A program made the translations under genes and the position numbers. From Candidatus Aminicenantota bacterium (lineage in GTDB: Bacteria > Acidobacteriota > Aminicenantia > Aminicenantales > Aminicenantaceae): DNA of 37,554 bases. Below are positions 4,020 through 37,554 of the stretch, piece by piece. Position 1 is the first letter of the stretch, and each line of letters starts with the position of its first letter. The stretch covers positions 1-37,554 of the forward strand of contig JAUWTO010000009.1 in assembly GCA_030614685.1 (NCBI GenBank), in the 5' to 3' direction. Below the pieces are notes generated by a model, which had not been told where the DNA came from, made no database searches, and saw nothing but the letters and a program-made list of their open reading frames with translations.

Positions 4020-4265
4020 TCAGTCCTTTTGGCAGCTCCCATCGACAGAACACGGTGGTGTGTCGCAGCGCTCGGTGCGGTCGCAGCAGGTATTCTCCGA
4101 ACTTCTAGGGGATGAAACGGAAACGCTGCCCAGGCTGGAAATGAGTTTGCGCAGATCCCGGCCGCCGCATTCGGGGCACTCGAGGTCTTCTGGAACGCTG
4201 CGGCTAGACAGGATGAATTCTGACGTTTGCCCGCACTTCCCACAGGAATATTCATAGATGGGCAT
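4020..4265 (-). CDS. FmdB-family zinc ribbon protein
   Basis: An 81-residue protein beginning MPIYEYSCGKCG, the hallmark of the FmdB/CxxC_CxxC_SSSS regulatory-protein family. The zinc ribbon uses C8/C11 and C30/C33. After the ribbon comes LRKLISSLGS, as in the family, and then a C-terminal tail with five more cysteines (SENTCCDRTERC, PPCS, GSC). That tail could bind a second metal. FmdB was named for a putative regulator of formamidase; the true molecular role is uncertain. It lies 15 bases downstream of the CGGC gene and 45 bases upstream of the C-S lyase gene in the same orientation. Confidence 0.85.
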   Translation of the reverse strand: MPIYEYSCGKCGQTSEFILSSRSVPEDLECPECGGRDLRKLISSLGSVSVSSPRSSENTCCDRTERCDTPPCSVDGSCQKD

Positions 4266-4280: not shown

Positions 4281-4724
4281 TCAGTTGTAGTCTTCCTGCA
4301 GGGCCGGGTCTTCTCTCATCAGGTCGCCCGCCAGCTGCTCCATGTTGCTTTGCTTCCAGAACGGCAGGTCGGCGTGGGCCTGCATGTACTTCAATGGGAT
4401 GGGATGGGTTCCGATTTGAACGGGAATGCCGTAGCGGCTCTCGATGAACTGTTTGAAATGACGGATCCGGGGGCAGGGGGGGTATCCCACGACCAGACCG
4501 GTGGCCAGGTGGATAACGTCCGCCCCGTTCTTGATCATCTCTTCGGGAACGTATTCCACGTTGCCGCCGGGGCACCCCCCGCAGAAGGAATATCCTACCA
4601 GCTCCACGTCCTCATCCTTGGGATAGATGGAAAATGCGCCCACGCGCTCGCGCAGTGCGCGCAGACACTTGCCGCCACCACAGCTTTGGTAACGGCCGCA
4701 GATGATGATGCCGATCTTCTTCAT
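4281..4724 (-). CDS. CGGC domain-containing protein
   Basis: A 147-residue protein with a run of cysteine motifs: C9, C15 and C20 in ICGRYQSCGGGKC and the name-giving C48-G-G-C51 in YSFCGGCPGG. The remaining sequence is alpha/beta, with a GADVIHLATGLVVGYPPCP strand-turn segment. CGGC proteins (PF08821) are small putative metal-binding proteins from anaerobic bacteria and archaea, and no reaction has been assigned. The ATG at 4722-4724 has GAGGA six bases upstream; a TTG five codons earlier would place that site inside the gene. The start is only 11 bases after the Mrp stop, so translation is probably coupled. Confidence 0.85.
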   Translation of the reverse strand: MKKIGIIICGRYQSCGGGKCLRALRERVGAFSIYPKDEDVELVGYSFCGGCPGGNVEYVPEEMIKNGADVIHLATGLVVGYPPCPRIRHFKQFIESRYGIPVQIGTHPIPLKYMQAHADLPFWKQSNMEQLAGDLMREDPALQEDYN

Positions 4725-5539: not shown

Positions 5540-6252
5540 TACGTCACCCCCAGGATGAAGTTCTGGATGGCCTCTCGGATCGTCCCCGAAGCCCCGCTGA
5601 TGATCTGGACACCGGCGGCCCTGAAGACCTGGTCGGCCTTGGGCCCGACCTGTCCAGTCAGGACGATGCGCACGCCTTTGTCCACGAGCATCTGGGCCGA
5701 GCCGATGCCAGCCCCCTGGGCATCCTCCAGGTAGGGATTCCTCACGGCCTCGATCTGCTGGGCCGCCGGATCCAGGATGAGAAAATAGGGCGCCCTGCCG
5801 AAACGCGGATCAATGTCCGAATCCATCCCTTTGTCCGTGGCGGTCAGGCAGATCTTGGCCCCCTGAGGGATCGCCTTCGGAGGCGTCTGCGGGGCCTCCT
5901 GGCACTCGTGGCCATTTCCGTGATGGTGGTCGCAGAGGTCTTCACCCGCGCTCAACTCGTTCTTCAGGTACTTGTCCAAGACCCCATCGATGGGACCCTG
6001 TACGCCTATGATGGTTGTGATGTTATTCTGTGCAAAGAGATTCTGAGCCCGGGGCCCCATGCCACCGGTGATGATGCATTCCACTCCTCTTTCCCCAAGG
6101 TAGCCCGGCAGGAAACCGGGCTCGTGGCCCGGATTGGGGATCTCTTCCCGGGCCACGATCTTGCCGTCTTCGACGTCAACGAGTATATATGTCGGGCAGC
6201 GTCCGAAATGAGCGGATACGTTTCCGCCTTCTGTAGATATCGCTAGCTTCAT
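5539..6252 (-). CDS. Tandem NifX/NifB-C-like (dinitrogenase FeMo-cofactor biosynthesis family) protein
   Basis: A 237-residue protein made of two NifX/NifB-C-terminal-like domains (about 1-105 and 130-235). Each starts with a LAISTEGG or CLTATDKG strand, continues with HFGRCP or RFGRAPYF and contains an [10 protein letters not shown] or [10 protein letters not shown] turn. These repeated signatures show an internal duplication. The linker is rich in metal ligands ([13 protein letters not shown], about 106-118). Proteins of this fold carry Fe-Mo or Mo-Cu clusters (NafY, NifX, ORP). Here it is coupled to an Mrp ATPase by a one-base overlap, as in ORP-type loci. The bound metal is not predictable. 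No nitrogenase structural genes are in view. Confidence 0.88.
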
Positions 6253-33362: not shown

Positions 33363-35081
33363 ATGGGGATCATTCAGAAACTGGACCAGGAAGTGGCCCG
33401 GAAGATCGCGGCCGGAGAGATAGTGGAGCGGCCGGTCTCGGTGATCAAGGAGCTGGTGGAAAATTCCCTGGACGCCGGAGCTACCGACATTCGGGTGGAG
33501 CTTCTGGACGGAGGCAAGGGACTGATCCGGATCACGGACAACGGGGAGGGCATGGCCCGCGACGATGCCCTGCTGTGTTTCGAGTCTCACGCCACCAGCA
33601 AGATCGCTGGAATAGACGACCTGGAGCGAATCAATACACTCGGGTTCCGGGGCGAGGCGCTCTCCAGCATCGCGGCCGTGGCCCGCGTGACTCTGATGAC
33701 GTCGGATGGACGAGAAGAGAAGGGGACCCGGATCCTGATCGAAGGCAAGGAACAGGGAGAAGCCGCAGACATCGCCTTTCCCAGGGGAACCAGCATCGAG
33801 GTCAAGGACCTGTTTTTTAACCTGCCGGCCCGGAAGAAGTTCCTGCGTTCGGACCGGGCCGAGCTCAACCGCATCACCCGGCTCCTGACGGATATTGCAT
33901 TGGCCTACCCCGCCGTGCGTTTTGCTCTCCAGCACGGCGAGCGCAGGGTCTTCGACTACCCGGCCGTGACCGGACTGAAGGAACGGCTATATCAAGTCTT
34001 TGGCAAGGCCTTTATTGAGGGCCTGCTCTCCTTTGATTACACGGAGGGAGGGCGTCGTCTCCATGGATTCGCTTCCCGCCCTCCCTCGGCTCGCATGGAC
34101 CGGAAGCATCAGTTCATCTTCATAAACGGCCGCCTGGTCAAGGATCCCACAGTCCAAGCGGCCCTGAACCAGGCCTACAAAAACTTCCTGGAAAAGGGCC
34201 AGTCCGCTGAAGCTGTTGTGGTCCTGGAGATCCCCGTCTCCGAGGTGGATGTCAATGTCCATCCAGCCAAGTCCGAAGTGCGCTTCCAGGACTCCCGTTC
34301 GATCTTTTCCTTTGTGTACCGCTGTGTGGAGCAGGCGCTTTTGCGGGAGCTGGGGATCAAGGAGGTCTATCCGGAGAAGAGCGAGGGACCGGCCGCGTTC
34401 CATGTGCAGGAGATGTCCCAGGCGGATCTGATCGGCCGGCCGGGGAAGAAGCGGAAGCCTTTGCCGCCGGCTGCCTCCGCCTCCCAGGCTCTCCAGGATA
34501 AGGCGACCGCAGAAAACCCGGTTCCCCGGGTCCTGGGCCAGTATCTGGACTTCTACATTGTGGCCGAGGATGAGGACGGCATTCTCATCATCGACCAGCA
34601 CAATGCCCACGAGCGCGTGCTCTTCGATCGATACCTGGAGATCGCTAAAAAGCAGGAATGGCCGCGAAAGATGACCCTGCATCCGAAAATCGTGGAGCTT
34701 TCTCCGGCGCAGGGCCTGAGCCTGGAGGAAAACCGGGCGCTGTTGGAGGACTCCGGCTTCCGCGTGGATGAAATGGGGGGGCGGAGTTTTGCGCTTAAGG
34801 AGTTTCCCGATATCTTTGACGAGCAGGAGGCGGTAGGTGTTTTCCTGGCCCTTCTGGAAGATGTGGGGCAGGAGCAGGTCGAGTCAAAGCGCCAACGGAT
34901 GCTGGCAACCCTGGCCTGCAAGTCCGCGATCAAGGCCGGGGAACCCCTGGCATTCGAGAAGATGGAGTATTTGGTGGAAGAACTGTTCAAGACCTCCAAC
35001 ACAGCCCTCTGCCCCCACGGCCGGCCCATCACCCTGCGTCTCCGCAGGAGCGAGATCGAAAAGGCCCTCCGCCGCAAATAA
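33363..35081 (+). CDS. mutL: DNA mismatch repair protein MutL
   Basis: A 572-residue MutL. The GHKL ATPase N-terminus has KIAAGEIVERPVSVIKELVENSLDAGA, DNGEGM, TLGFRGEALSSI and FFNLPARKKFL. The C-terminal dimerisation domain holds an endonuclease-like site: DQHNAHERVLFD (from D411) and ACKSAIKAGE, CPHGRP. The usual endonuclease motif is DQHA(x)2E(x)4E; here Ala is Asn and the last Glu is Asp. The linker (about 330-395) is short, so the protein is smaller than the typical 600-650. No mutS is in the window. It begins six bases after mtaB. Confidence 0.95.
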   Translation: MGIIQKLDQEVARKIAAGEIVERPVSVIKELVENSLDAGATDIRVELLDGGKGLIRITDNGEGMARDDALLCFESHATSKIAGIDDLERINTLGFRGEALSSIAAVARVTLMTSDGREEKGTRILIEGKEQGEAADIAFPRGTSIEVKDLFFNLPARKKFLRSDRAELNRITRLLTDIALAYPAVRFALQHGERRVFDYPAVTGLKERLYQVFGKAFIEGLLSFDYTEGGRRLHGFASRPPSARMDRKHQFIFINGRLVKDPTVQAALNQAYKNFLEKGQSAEAVVVLEIPVSEVDVNVHPAKSEVRFQDSRSIFSFVYRCVEQALLRELGIKEVYPEKSEGPAAFHVQEMSQADLIGRPGKKRKPLPPAASASQALQDKATAENPVPRVLGQYLDFYIVAEDEDGILIIDQHNAHERVLFDRYLEIAKKQEWPRKMTLHPKIVELSPAQGLSLEENRALLEDSGFRVDEMGGRSFALKEFPDIFDEQEAVGVFLALLEDVGQEQVESKRQRMLATLACKSAIKAGEPLAFEKMEYLVEELFKTSNTALCPHGRPITLRLRRSEIEKALRRK

Positions 35082-35241: not shown

Positions 35242-35287
35242 TATGACTGCCTTGGCAGTCCTGTGCTGCTGAGGAATCACTCGAGAT

Positions 35288-35361
35288 CGGGGAGTAGCGC
35301 AGCCTGGTAGCGCGCCTGCTTTGGGAGCAGGAGATCGTCGGTTCAAATCCGGCCTCCCCGA
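35288..35361 (+). tRNA. tRNA-Pro (anticodon UGG)
   Basis: A complete cloverleaf of 74 bases. Acceptor arms CGGGGAG/CTCCCCG pair fully, the D stem is GCGC/GCGC, the anticodon stem CCTGC/GCAGG encloses TTTGGGA (anticodon TGG), and the T arm is GTCGG-TTCAAAT-CCGGC. Discriminator A, as expected for proline. The CCA tail is not encoded. Confidence 0.95.
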
Positions 35362-35504
35362 TTAATTCTTCGAGCGAAGTGACGAATAATTCAGTATAAT
35401 ATAGGTCTAGATATAAATTGGGTCATGTACGAAAGATGTCGATCCTCACTGAAATATTCACAGGTCATAAATATCGAAATCTTTTGCGAATGATTCAATT
35501 TGGT

Positions 35505-35581
35505 GCGCCTGTAGCTCAGTAGGACAGAGCAGCTGCCTTCTAAGCAGCGGGTCGGGAGTTCGAGTCTCTCCAGGCGCGCCA
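35505..35581 (+). tRNA. tRNA-Arg (anticodon UCU)
   Basis: A complete cloverleaf of 77 bases including an encoded CCA (35579-35581). Acceptor GCGCCTG/CAGGCGC, D stem GCTC/GAGC, anticodon stem GCTGC/GCAGC around CTTCTAA (anticodon TCT), T arm GGGAG-TTCGAGT-CTCTC with one G-T pair. Discriminator G. Confidence 0.95.
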
Positions 35582-35687
35582 CTCAATCCCTTATTTTTCA
35601 ATAGTTTCCCTTTGGTTAGCATTTCTGTGAGATAATGTAATACAAACTGAATAGGGAAATTATTAACATACTCATTAGCATTCTATA

Positions 35688-35840
35688 ATGAAGATTGAGA
35701 ACTGGAAAACGAAAAAAGTTCGTCCGTTAGAAGAACGGTTTCCAAAATATATTTTAGACAAACTAAGAAAGGAATATGAAAAGACAAATTACAAAAGTGA
35801 GACATTCGAAATGTGGCTGATTCGAAATAAGCGAATATAA
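35688..35840 (+). CDS. Small hypothetical protein (50 residues)
   Basis: An open frame of 50 codons from ATG 35688 to TAA 35840 in AT-rich DNA. The product is strongly charged (MKIENWKTKKVRPLEER at the start, then about 12 more Lys/Arg and Glu), predicted mostly helical, without cysteine or membrane segment. No clear ribosome site is present (a TATAAT overlaps the start). I do not recognise it. Codon use is A/T-rich, unlike the genes to the left. It may be a gene of a mobile element or a chance frame. Confidence 0.35.
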   Translation: MKIENWKTKKVRPLEERFPKYILDKLRKEYEKTNYKSETFEMWLIRNKRI

Positions 35841-35860
35841 TCGTACAACACTAGGTTGCA

Positions 35861-35912
35861 GGTTCGAGTCCGGCCCGAGTGCCTAGGGGTTCGAATCCCT
35901 CCGGGCGTGCCA
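35861..35912 (+). other. tRNA 3'-end remnants (possible attachment site)
   Basis: Two T-arm-like pieces in tandem: GGTTCGAGTCC (35861-35871) and GGGGTTCGAATCCC (35886-35899), the latter followed by CTCCGGGCGTGCCA-like sequence ending in CCA at 35910-35912. The second aligns closely with the 3' part of the tRNA-Arg (TTCGA[G/A]TC..CTCC.GGCG.GCCA). No matching 5' half is nearby. GCCCG (35873-35877) could pair with CGGGC (35902-35906). This is what an att site left by integration at a tRNA would look like. Confidence 0.5.
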
Positions 35913-36056
35913 GCTAAAGACCCTAGTTTTAACCACTTAACTCCTGATGCATTTTTAGTTGGATTTAGTTAAACTGAGTCATTTTTAGTCGATTTGTCTG
36001 ACCTGCCCCCACATGCCAATCCCGCAGTTGAGTTATAATTTGGCTGGAGAAAGCGT
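35913..36056. other. AT-rich spacer with a direct repeat
   Basis: No gene is seen here. CATTTTTAGT occurs at 35950-35959 and again at 35980-35989, 30 bases apart, each followed by a GATTT-containing segment. Together with the preceding gap (35582-35687) it forms a mostly noncoding, AT-rich boundary between the tRNA genes and the glycosyltransferase genes. Confidence 0.5.
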
Positions 36057-37283
36057 CTAATCCCGGGGAAATTGGAGCAGGCCGCAGACCGCCTTTGCGG
36101 TTTTGTCTGAAGAGAAATAATCCATCAGGTTTTCCCAGTTTTTCTGAAGTATGCGAAGGTCTTGAAATGAATTCTTTTTTGCAGCAGCCATGGTTCTGGC
36201 AATAAATATATTATTCATGCACTCCAAAGCGCTCTTGTAATCATTCTGGCTGAGATATTCTATGGCAAGCATCTGATTGGAGCGGAATATGCGTTCTTCC
36301 AAATCCGTTTTCAAAAATTCCCCGGGATAAGGATCGAGCTCTTCAGCTGAAATTCTCTCCATACAGGGGATATCTTCCTGGGTATCTAGTTTGTTTTTCT
36401 CAAAAATGAAGCGAACGACATCCTCTCTGACCCTTACCCAGGTGGGAGAGGATTTAGGTGGAGCGAGATGTTTGATGGAAAGTTGATTATCCAAGTAGAC
36501 CTGATATCCAAACATCCTGGCATTGATTAGGAAATCGATGTCTTCACCCCTAGTAACAGAAGGATCAAAAGGAATTCTCAAGAATAATTCCCTGTGAATC
36601 ACAAGATTGCCGCCAAAAGCAAAAGGTGTTGGTTTAATCCTTGGCTCTTTCGAAATGATTTGGTTGAAAGCCCGATTCATGCAATCGATCTTGTTCCAGT
36701 GGGTCATCCAGGGGTCGATTTGTCGGTTCAAGAGGAAATCATTGTCAGGATTAATGTAGTATCCGGCCACTGCGAGGATTTTTTCATTATCTCTATGCTG
36801 GCCGATGAAATCAAAGGCCTTGTTCATGAACAGCTCATCTTCGAATACCTCGTCGTCATCGATAAGAACAGCAGCCTCAGAGCCAAGCAAGTGAGGGAGA
36901 AATGTGCAGAGGTTTCGGACATTCGAATATCCGCCGAGCTTCAACAAAGGGATAAACTCTTCGCGATTGTTTTGTTTTAAGAAATCATAGATCTTTGAGA
37001 GACCGGAATAAGAAAAGAGAAAAGTCTCGACCTCAGGGGATATTTGTTTGATGAGCGTGGTTAATTTCCCCTCCACCTCATCCCGGATATCCTCCGAAGT
37101 AGCGACTCCCAGAATGACAAGATTGAAGTCTATATTTTTGAGTAATTCCAGACTTTTCAGGAGCCTGAGCAGCGTTCCTTCTTGGTCCAAAGGTGTGGGA
37201 TGGTCATAGACATCATCTGATTTTCTCCATCCGTCGCTGGTTTTTCTTCCCCAGTAGCTGGGGATCACCATTGTTGCTTTCAT
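36057..37283 (-). CDS. GT-A fold glycosyltransferase-like protein
   Basis: A 408-residue protein resembling family 2-type glycosyltransferases. The nucleotide-sugar metal motif appears as AVLIDDDEVFED (DDD around 141), an acceptor region GGNLVIHRELF lies in the middle, and TRGEDIDFLINARMFGYQVYLD (about 245-266) is the usual ED motif. The N-terminus MKATMVIPSYWGR is the first strand. The C-terminal 120 residues are helical and of unknown role. GGAGGA is five bases upstream of the ATG. The gene is clearly more AT-rich than the rest of the window, suggesting transfer, as is common for surface polysaccharide genes. Sugar and acceptor unknown. Confidence 0.72.
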   Translation of the reverse strand: MKATMVIPSYWGRKTSDGWRKSDDVYDHPTPLDQEGTLLRLLKSLELLKNIDFNLVILGVATSEDIRDEVEGKLTTLIKQISPEVETFLFSYSGLSKIYDFLKQNNREEFIPLLKLGGYSNVRNLCTFLPHLLGSEAAVLIDDDEVFEDELFMNKAFDFIGQHRDNEKILAVAGYYINPDNDFLLNRQIDPWMTHWNKIDCMNRAFNQIISKEPRIKPTPFAFGGNLVIHRELFLRIPFDPSVTRGEDIDFLINARMFGYQVYLDNQLSIKHLAPPKSSPTWVRVREDVVRFIFEKNKLDTQEDIPCMERISAEELDPYPGEFLKTDLEERIFRSNQMLAIEYLSQNDYKSALECMNNIFIARTMAAAKKNSFQDLRILQKNWENLMDYFSSDKTAKAVCGLLQFPRD

Positions 37284-37293
37284 GTGCTTCCTC

Positions 37294-37554
37294 CTAGTTT
37301 TGCACCCTTGGCTCTTCCTTCATCATCGTTTCAAGCACACGTTCCAGGACTTCCACTCCTTTTTGCCACGCGTATTTTTCTTCGACCAGCCTGCGCGCAT
37401 TACGGCTTATATCATGGTAGAGTGATTCATCATTCAGCAGGTCAAAGATACCCGTGGCAAATCTCTCGGGCTCATCGGCGATGATGATATTCTTTCTGTC
37501 GGCGGCCGGGATGCCCTCTGAACCCAAAGAGGTCGACACGACTGGTCGGCCCAC
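37294..37554 (-). CDS. Family 4/1-type glycosyltransferase, C-terminal part (5' end beyond window)
   Basis: The last 86 codons of a gene that continues past the window edge. GRPVVSTSLGSEGIPAADRKNIIIADEPERFATGIFDLL is the typical GT-B nucleotide-sugar binding segment of GT4/GT1 enzymes (GxPVVsTxxGxEGl and the E-P-xx-F element), followed by the C-terminal helix RRLVEEKYAWQKGVEVLE. The visible GTG at the edge is an internal valine, not a start. It lies 10 bases upstream of the GT-A gene, in the same operon. Confidence 0.8.
   Translation of the reverse strand: MGRPVVSTSLGSEGIPAADRKNIIIADEPERFATGIFDLLNDESLYHDISRNARRLVEEKYAWQKGVEVLERVLETMMKEEPRVQN

Follow-up and report, generated by a model that had tools for sequence, protein, structure and literature searches.

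A probable decayed array of attachment-site remnants from tRNA-targeting integrase elements downstream of tRNA-Arg(UCU) in a Candidatus Aminicenantota genome

The window, the whole stretch of DNA that was analysed, is the complete 37,554-base contig C235 of a 2.94-Mb genome assembled in 397 contigs. Its right edge is the end of the assembly contig, about 2 kb past an intact tRNA-Arg(UCU) gene. Upstream of that gene are tRNA-Pro(UGG) and mutL; downstream are pieces of tRNA genes, a short module that recurs in related genomes, and two predicted glycosyltransferase genes. The features are as follows.

33363..35081, + strand: mutL, a conserved gene that precedes the site (Pfam DNA_mis_repair, E 1e-34; MutL_C, E 2e-31)
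35287..35362, + strand: intact tRNA-Pro(UGG) (ARAGORN; Rfam RF00005, 67.7 bits)
35505..35581, + strand: intact tRNA-Arg(UCU), the left edge of the hotspot (ARAGORN; Rfam, 68.7 bits)
35582..35631, + strand: AT-rich segment common to the window and the same-genus genome G001, inside an 85.8% identity match that ends at 35631
35685..35848, + strand: piece that probably formed the right end of another element and contains an open frame of 50 codons at 35688-35840 (match to G021:C279)
35849..35883, + strand: partial tRNA-Asn(GUU) 3′ tail (30 of 31 bases of the relatives' tRNA-Asn; scanner 21/25 and 34/49)
35885..35912, + strand: tRNA-Arg(UCG)-type 3′ tail, from T-arm to CCA (scanner 24/25; 33/49 in a longer comparison)
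35913..35998, + strand: predicted element left-end module, core 35952-35998, truncated inside the arm word (positions 2-48 of 66 of model R1, E 4e-11)
36057..37283, - strand: GT2-like glycosyltransferase of low GC (Pfam E 2e-4, below the curated cut-off)
37294..37554, - strand: GT1-like glycosyltransferase, cut by the contig end (Pfam E 3e-3, below the curated cut-off)

The upstream genes are widely shared. We found a mutL match in 37 of 41 genomes searched, and tRNA-Pro and tRNA-Arg(UCU) are both present at 23 of 30 mutL loci (own genome included in both counts), in inverted orientation in 2 of the 23. Base composition changes near these tRNA genes: the GC content is 0.585 for positions 1-35500 (the lowest 1-kb window ending by 35000 has 0.525, in 500-base steps) and 0.437 for 35582-37554. 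A reading of this DNA made earlier from its letters only, here called the sequence-only reading, placed a drop to AT-rich sequence directly after tRNA-Arg(UCU). The DNA after the gene is AT-rich, with a GC content of 0.307 for 35582-35848, but the fall begins before the gene, and the spacer at 35363-35504 is already at 0.331. A stretch similar to 35582-35631, as judged by eye, follows a displaced tRNA-Arg(UCU) tail in the genome G002, and this segment is perhaps a remnant of the left end of an old element.

Two partial tRNA 3′ ends lie back to back in the window, the tRNA-Asn-type tail directly preceding the tRNA-Arg(UCG)-type tail. The tail scan kept matches of at least 20 of 25 bases against a library of 82 tRNA 3′ halves. 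The tRNA-Asn-type tail was found in none of 100 shuffled sequences. The last 27 bases of the second tail occur once in the window with up to three mismatches allowed, and in none of 100 shuffles. The second tail starts at the T-arm, since the longer comparison gives only 33 of 49 bases. In G001 (contig C328), the 3′ end of tRNA-Arg(UCG) together with the base that follows it matches positions 35886-35913 at 28 of 28 bases. Tail-like matches that fit no tRNA, such as that at 4398-4425, were treated as chance.

An island edge at the tRNA gene, marked by displaced tRNA 3′ ends, had been proposed from the letters, and these two tails bear it out. The remnant described there as very like the adjacent tRNA-Arg tail does end 331 bases after tRNA-Arg(UCU); its type is that of tRNA-Arg(UCG), and it differs from the adjacent gene at 6 of 28 positions. 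One simple island, in which tRNA-Arg(UCU) is attL, the fragment 330 bp on is attR and the element between them has nearly all been lost, is therefore very unlikely. It would fit the presence of a tRNA-Arg-like tail and the use of the tRNA-Arg(UCU) 3′ half as an insertion site in another genus, but the tail is of another type, and a tRNA-Asn tail intervenes. The tRNA ends also cannot be the attL and attR of the glycosyltransferase segment, as had been suggested, because they enclose about 300 bp and the glycosyltransferase genes lie outside the pair.

The DNA before the tRNA-Asn-type tail probably came from a further element. Positions 35685-35879 match contig C279 of G021 at 86.7% identity over 195 bp, and there too the match runs into a tRNA-Asn-type tail. 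The 50-codon frame in this piece was considered as a conserved gene and rejected. At E <= 0.01 it has matches in 3 of 94 genomes, the window's own among them and the third weak, and 11 of its 15 changed codons are non-synonymous, so there is no clear protein selection and we treat the frame as remnant DNA. The same match bears on whether the region is a chimera, made in assembly by joining at tRNA-like repeats. The 397 contigs and a contig end about 2 kb after the tRNA would suit a chimera, but G001 agrees over the 50 bp that directly follow the tRNA, the piece with the tRNA-Asn tail is also present in G021, and the tRNA tails are only about 30 bp long. We consider a chimera highly improbable.

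The site after tRNA-Pro and tRNA-Arg(UCU) is an integration hotspot, though it is not recognisably occupied everywhere. Relatives lacking the island had been proposed as a check, and two were found: in G035 and G056, which belong to one genus in another family of the order, the site is empty and the DNA after tRNA-Arg(UCU) is colinear. In G029 the flank common to these two genomes resumes 7.9 kb later. The alignments with both start at base 27 of a tRNA copy, so the 3′ half of the tRNA is repeated; the G029 insert thus has both tRNA ends. It also contains a tRNA-Asp tail, and no integrase was found in it. G058 has three tRNA-Arg(UCU) tails before the shared flank (the sequence examined excludes its tRNA gene), and G065 has two tails at the site. 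In G063 and G060 about 6.5 and 13.4 kb, with no recognised tail, lie between the tRNA and the flank, and G066 has neither tail nor flank within 16.6 kb. The module, tails or both follow tRNA-Pro/tRNA-Arg(UCU) in G005, G023, G031, G040 and G050, the G040 contig holding only the tRNA-Pro end. At this site in G040 (L196, contig C240, 248-6530) a 6.3-kb unit encodes Fic, HTH and DNA methyltransferase genes, possibly a defence cargo.

Eleven relatives scanned (G001, G020, G007, G013, G008, G011, G018, G006, G015, G039 and G037) have no accepted tail after tRNA-Arg, and the module has no match on their site contigs. Three of the eleven have tail-like matches on the strand of the tRNA that fit no tRNA. 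We considered G001 as an empty site and rejected it, as its tRNA-Arg is followed by a frame that by eye looks RNase-H-like and by a doubled period-11 word. Because G001 has other DNA there, the genus of the window is without an empty site.

Complete elements occur elsewhere in the order, in G027, G031 and G005. Each has an intact tRNA and, 11 to 36 kb beyond it, a tyrosine integrase gene whose 3′ end adjoins a tail of the same tRNA. The full order is the tRNA, a doubled arm word, cargo, the tyrosine integrase, the 3′ end of which contains a matching word, and the tRNA tail. The doubled word is common to both ends in all three elements (21, 21 and 19 of 22 bases, compared with 17, 15 and 15 at best in 20 shuffles). 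Twenty integrase loci were picked by hand among the matches listed, high-scoring XerC/D-like ones being passed over. The mapped loci contain 19 integrase frames of at least 325 amino acids. At or just after the 3′ end, nine have a recognised tail, three a tRNA call and seven neither, and one of these seven has a tail by eye. Of the 19 integrase 3′ ends, 13 have a period-11 repeat, against none of 19 control stretches of equal length; other periods from 8 to 16 are present at 1 to 3 of the 19. The integrase of G003 at locus L239 has a word of GTCC type.

Lambda-type tyrosine integrases bind arm sites close to the attachment site, arranged as direct repeats spaced by roughly one turn of the helix. 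We infer that the doubled period-11 words are arm-type integrase-binding sites of this sort. Unlike lambda-type arm sites, these putative sites have a word that varies between elements and nearly matches at the two ends of each complete one. Among ten end pairs that have no intact integrase, the window and contig C236 included, an arm-word match is kept only in G029 (18 of 22 bases, shuffles up to 15). As a separate observation, two integrase frames (L229 at 1489-2640 and L222 at 347-769) run into an intact-looking tRNA-Arg directly downstream.

In layout, the module found in the window resembles the left ends of the complete elements. It is a 66-bp sequence with 29 invariant columns among 15 aligned copies. 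The window copy lies 38 bp after the tRNA-Arg(UCG)-type tail, and it is cut inside the arm word, because the profile match covers only positions 2-48. Positions 35889-35998 are 86-87% identical to the end of an intact tRNA-Arg(ACG) and the DNA after it on two contigs of the same genome, C192 and C142. On these two contigs (L084 and L085) the DNA before the tRNA, the tRNA-Arg(ACG) and the module are about 92% alike over 236-241 bp and diverge beyond, and both have a small membrane-protein-like gene upstream (SecG-like by eye).

Across 94 genomes of the order, the module profile matched 54 times, in 24 genomes; under strict filters, which lose some weak matches, the module was not detected in the other 70. 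A recognised tRNA 3′ end lies 26-72 bp upstream on the same strand in 33 of 52 unique copies, counted over 76 mapped loci, many of which were chosen because they contain the module. These ends are 20 intact genes and 13 partial tails. They represent eleven anticodons in all, from tRNAs for Ala, Lys, Met, Val, His, Leu and, with five anticodons, Arg; Arg UCG is represented by tails only. The remaining 19 copies are not near a recognised tRNA end, and several of them have diverged tails by eye. The modules at L193 (5215 and 8112) and L214 (2793) are preceded by a common sequence with no obvious tRNA end, as judged by eye, and this may be another target gene. The module also occurs in tandem.

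An exact pattern from the module was found in 12 stretches from a collection of 84,980 species, in which records of the window's own genome may be absent; they represent eight genomes by accession, all titled Candidatus Aminicenantes. Model R1 matched 10 of 396 genomes drawn evenly across the phylum with the order included: eight of the order and two outside it (G128 and G286), both weakly. The exact arm pattern had no match in viral contigs. Within the DNA covered, sixteen module copies have a tRNA end downstream; by profile, an intact integrase lies between in none of the 16 and a fragment in one, and four of the 16 end at an intact tRNA (L190, L203 twice and L205) and need not be units. That the module is host DNA, such as a tRNA trailer or terminator, is very unlikely: its narrow range of distances from a recognised tRNA end would be expected of such DNA, but 13 of the 33 tRNA ends before it are partial tails and 20 are intact genes, and it occurs in tandem, is undetected by strict filters in 70 of 94 genomes, and has a layout like the left ends of complete integrase-bearing elements.

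Arrays are found in several genomes. G027 has a 15-kb element with an integrase, flanked by tRNA-Arg(UCG) on one side and a module unit on the other, so that integrase, tail and module come in order, and then there are another tail, another module and a tRNA-Asp tail. Ends of different tRNAs also stand in series on contig C192 of the same genome as the window (Arg, then an ARAGORN-called tRNA-Ser), in G050 (tRNA-Arg, then an Ala tail) and in the window. Arrays are also present in G058 and G065.

We predict, with a probability of about 0.86, that positions 35582-36000 are a decayed array of attachment-site remnants, left at an integration hotspot past tRNA-Arg(UCU) by several elements that target tRNA genes with a tyrosine integrase. 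The tails, the truncated module, the complete elements elsewhere and the site that is empty or occupied in another genus support a hotspot with a decayed array. More than one event is indicated, because both a tRNA-Asn tail and a truncated element left end are present. Each element would recombine a copy of the tRNA 3′ half into the chromosomal tRNA gene. At the left end the tRNA gene would stay intact and be followed by arm-type integrase-binding sites (the left-end module), and at the right end a displaced tRNA tail would be left beside the integrase gene. Tails and left ends may then have piled up before cargo such as the glycosyltransferase pair through repeated insertion, deletion and the loss of integrases, in an order of events that we infer for this genome.

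The far side of the island is probably contig C236, a placement drawn from comparison with G001 and made without an assembly link to C235. The DNA downstream of tRNA-Arg in G001 is colinear, at 85-87% identity, with C236 from position 5846. C236 has a tRNA-Arg(UCG) tail at 4024-4076, and the G001-colinear DNA begins 1.8 kb later. A gene encoding two-component-regulator propeller and histidine-kinase ATPase domains stands before the tail, and a beta-propeller gene stands after it. The G001 stretch thus lacks counterparts to about 2 kb of C235 and 5.8 kb of C236, and has about 0.85 kb of other DNA in their place. An attempt to pair the left end in the window with the tail on C236 through their arm words failed, as the best match (14 of 22) is within the shuffle range (up to 15) and the two ends have no common arm word. 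The absence of an integrase from the window, noted in the sequence-only reading, was confirmed: C235 and C236 both have no integrase gene. Three integrase-family matches elsewhere in the genome (C265, C77 and C307) were considered as the missing partner and rejected, none being on C235 or C236.

The two genes at the end of the window may be cargo. The sequence-only reading had glycosyltransferase genes of foreign composition following the tRNA remnant. Their GC content is low. Their Pfam matches are below the curated cut-offs, but homologues of both adjoin each other at 8 of the 11 homologue loci in relatives. The GT1-like protein is 57-63% identical to the product of the gene beside the GT2 homologue in those eight loci. 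The GT2-like gene has a GC content of 0.438 and a GC3 of 0.506, against 0.604 and 0.763 for mutL, and its GC is within 0.06 of the mutL-region GC in eight relatives (region bounds approximate). It has a match in 13 of 41 genomes, own included, and none in G001. The composition suggests that the gene was gained from a relative of lower GC. The GT2 tree is broadly like the mutL tree and does not demand a gain, so the case for a recent transfer comes from composition and from absence in G001.

The mechanism of integration, decay and accretion is of a known kind, and the family is apparently new in a little-studied lineage. The tRNA-targeting genomic islands with tyrosine integrases of Islander (PMC4383910) are among the comparable known systems. 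The elements in G027, G031 and G005 are like them in having an intact tRNA at one end, a displaced tRNA fragment at the other and an integrase inside. The window differs from this in having no integrase, and in tails of Asn and Arg(UCG) type that do not match tRNA-Arg(UCU). Displaced tRNA 3′ fragments are present, two in the window and one on C236. A cognate intact tRNA at the other end is absent here, where the adjacent gene is Arg(UCU), and is present in the elements of relatives. CIMEs, which have lost the integrase and kept the attachment sites, and tandem accretion from later insertions are well described (PMC5704250, in the portion cited). The integrase-less remnants in tandem are alike, and the window has two tails and one left-end module within 150 bp. 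Unlike the arrays covered in that portion, those here mix tails of different tRNAs and have mostly lost the right-end arm word; for the two ends expected of a CIME, the window has a truncated left end, and the candidate right end is on another contig and lacks a matching arm word. Tycheposons and additive flexible islands, as presented in part of PMC10872708, likewise have tRNA-bounded cargo and, in the additive island, repeated tRNA ends, whereas here one left-end module is common to many tRNA targets. Among the matches listed for Aminicenantes islands and mobile elements, tycheposons and accretion, titles and abstracts describe no such family in this lineage.

A wider reading, which we regard as tentative and rather unlikely, is that Aminicenantes have a tRNA-tail cassette system in which small units with a common arm-site module, used at tRNAs of at least eleven anticodons, would be moved in trans by a few resident integrases, the window being one array. 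Many units would then have no integrase and some would have one gene or none, and tails of different tRNAs would be stacked as integrons stack cassettes. For the decayed array of element remnants, the 66-bp left end, the period-11 arm word in the integrase 3′ end and the tRNA tail provide an anatomical key for mobile islands in a mostly uncultured lineage, in which one chromosomal site is used repeatedly across the order. Arm words offer a way to test which integrase mobilises a given unit that has none of its own.

The genome also encodes an intron in a tRNA-Asn gene. At about 4245-4672 of L090 (contig C392) a group I intron some 350 bases long (Rfam RF00028, 69 bits) interrupts tRNA-Asn(GUU) in the anticodon. 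Titles and the starts of abstracts among the literature matches listed mention no group I intron in a bacterial tRNA-Asn. Group I introns in L076 and L077 are also above the cut-off, and similar intron ends were recognised by eye in L068 and L074 (both below the cut-off) and in contig C154 of G001 (L262).
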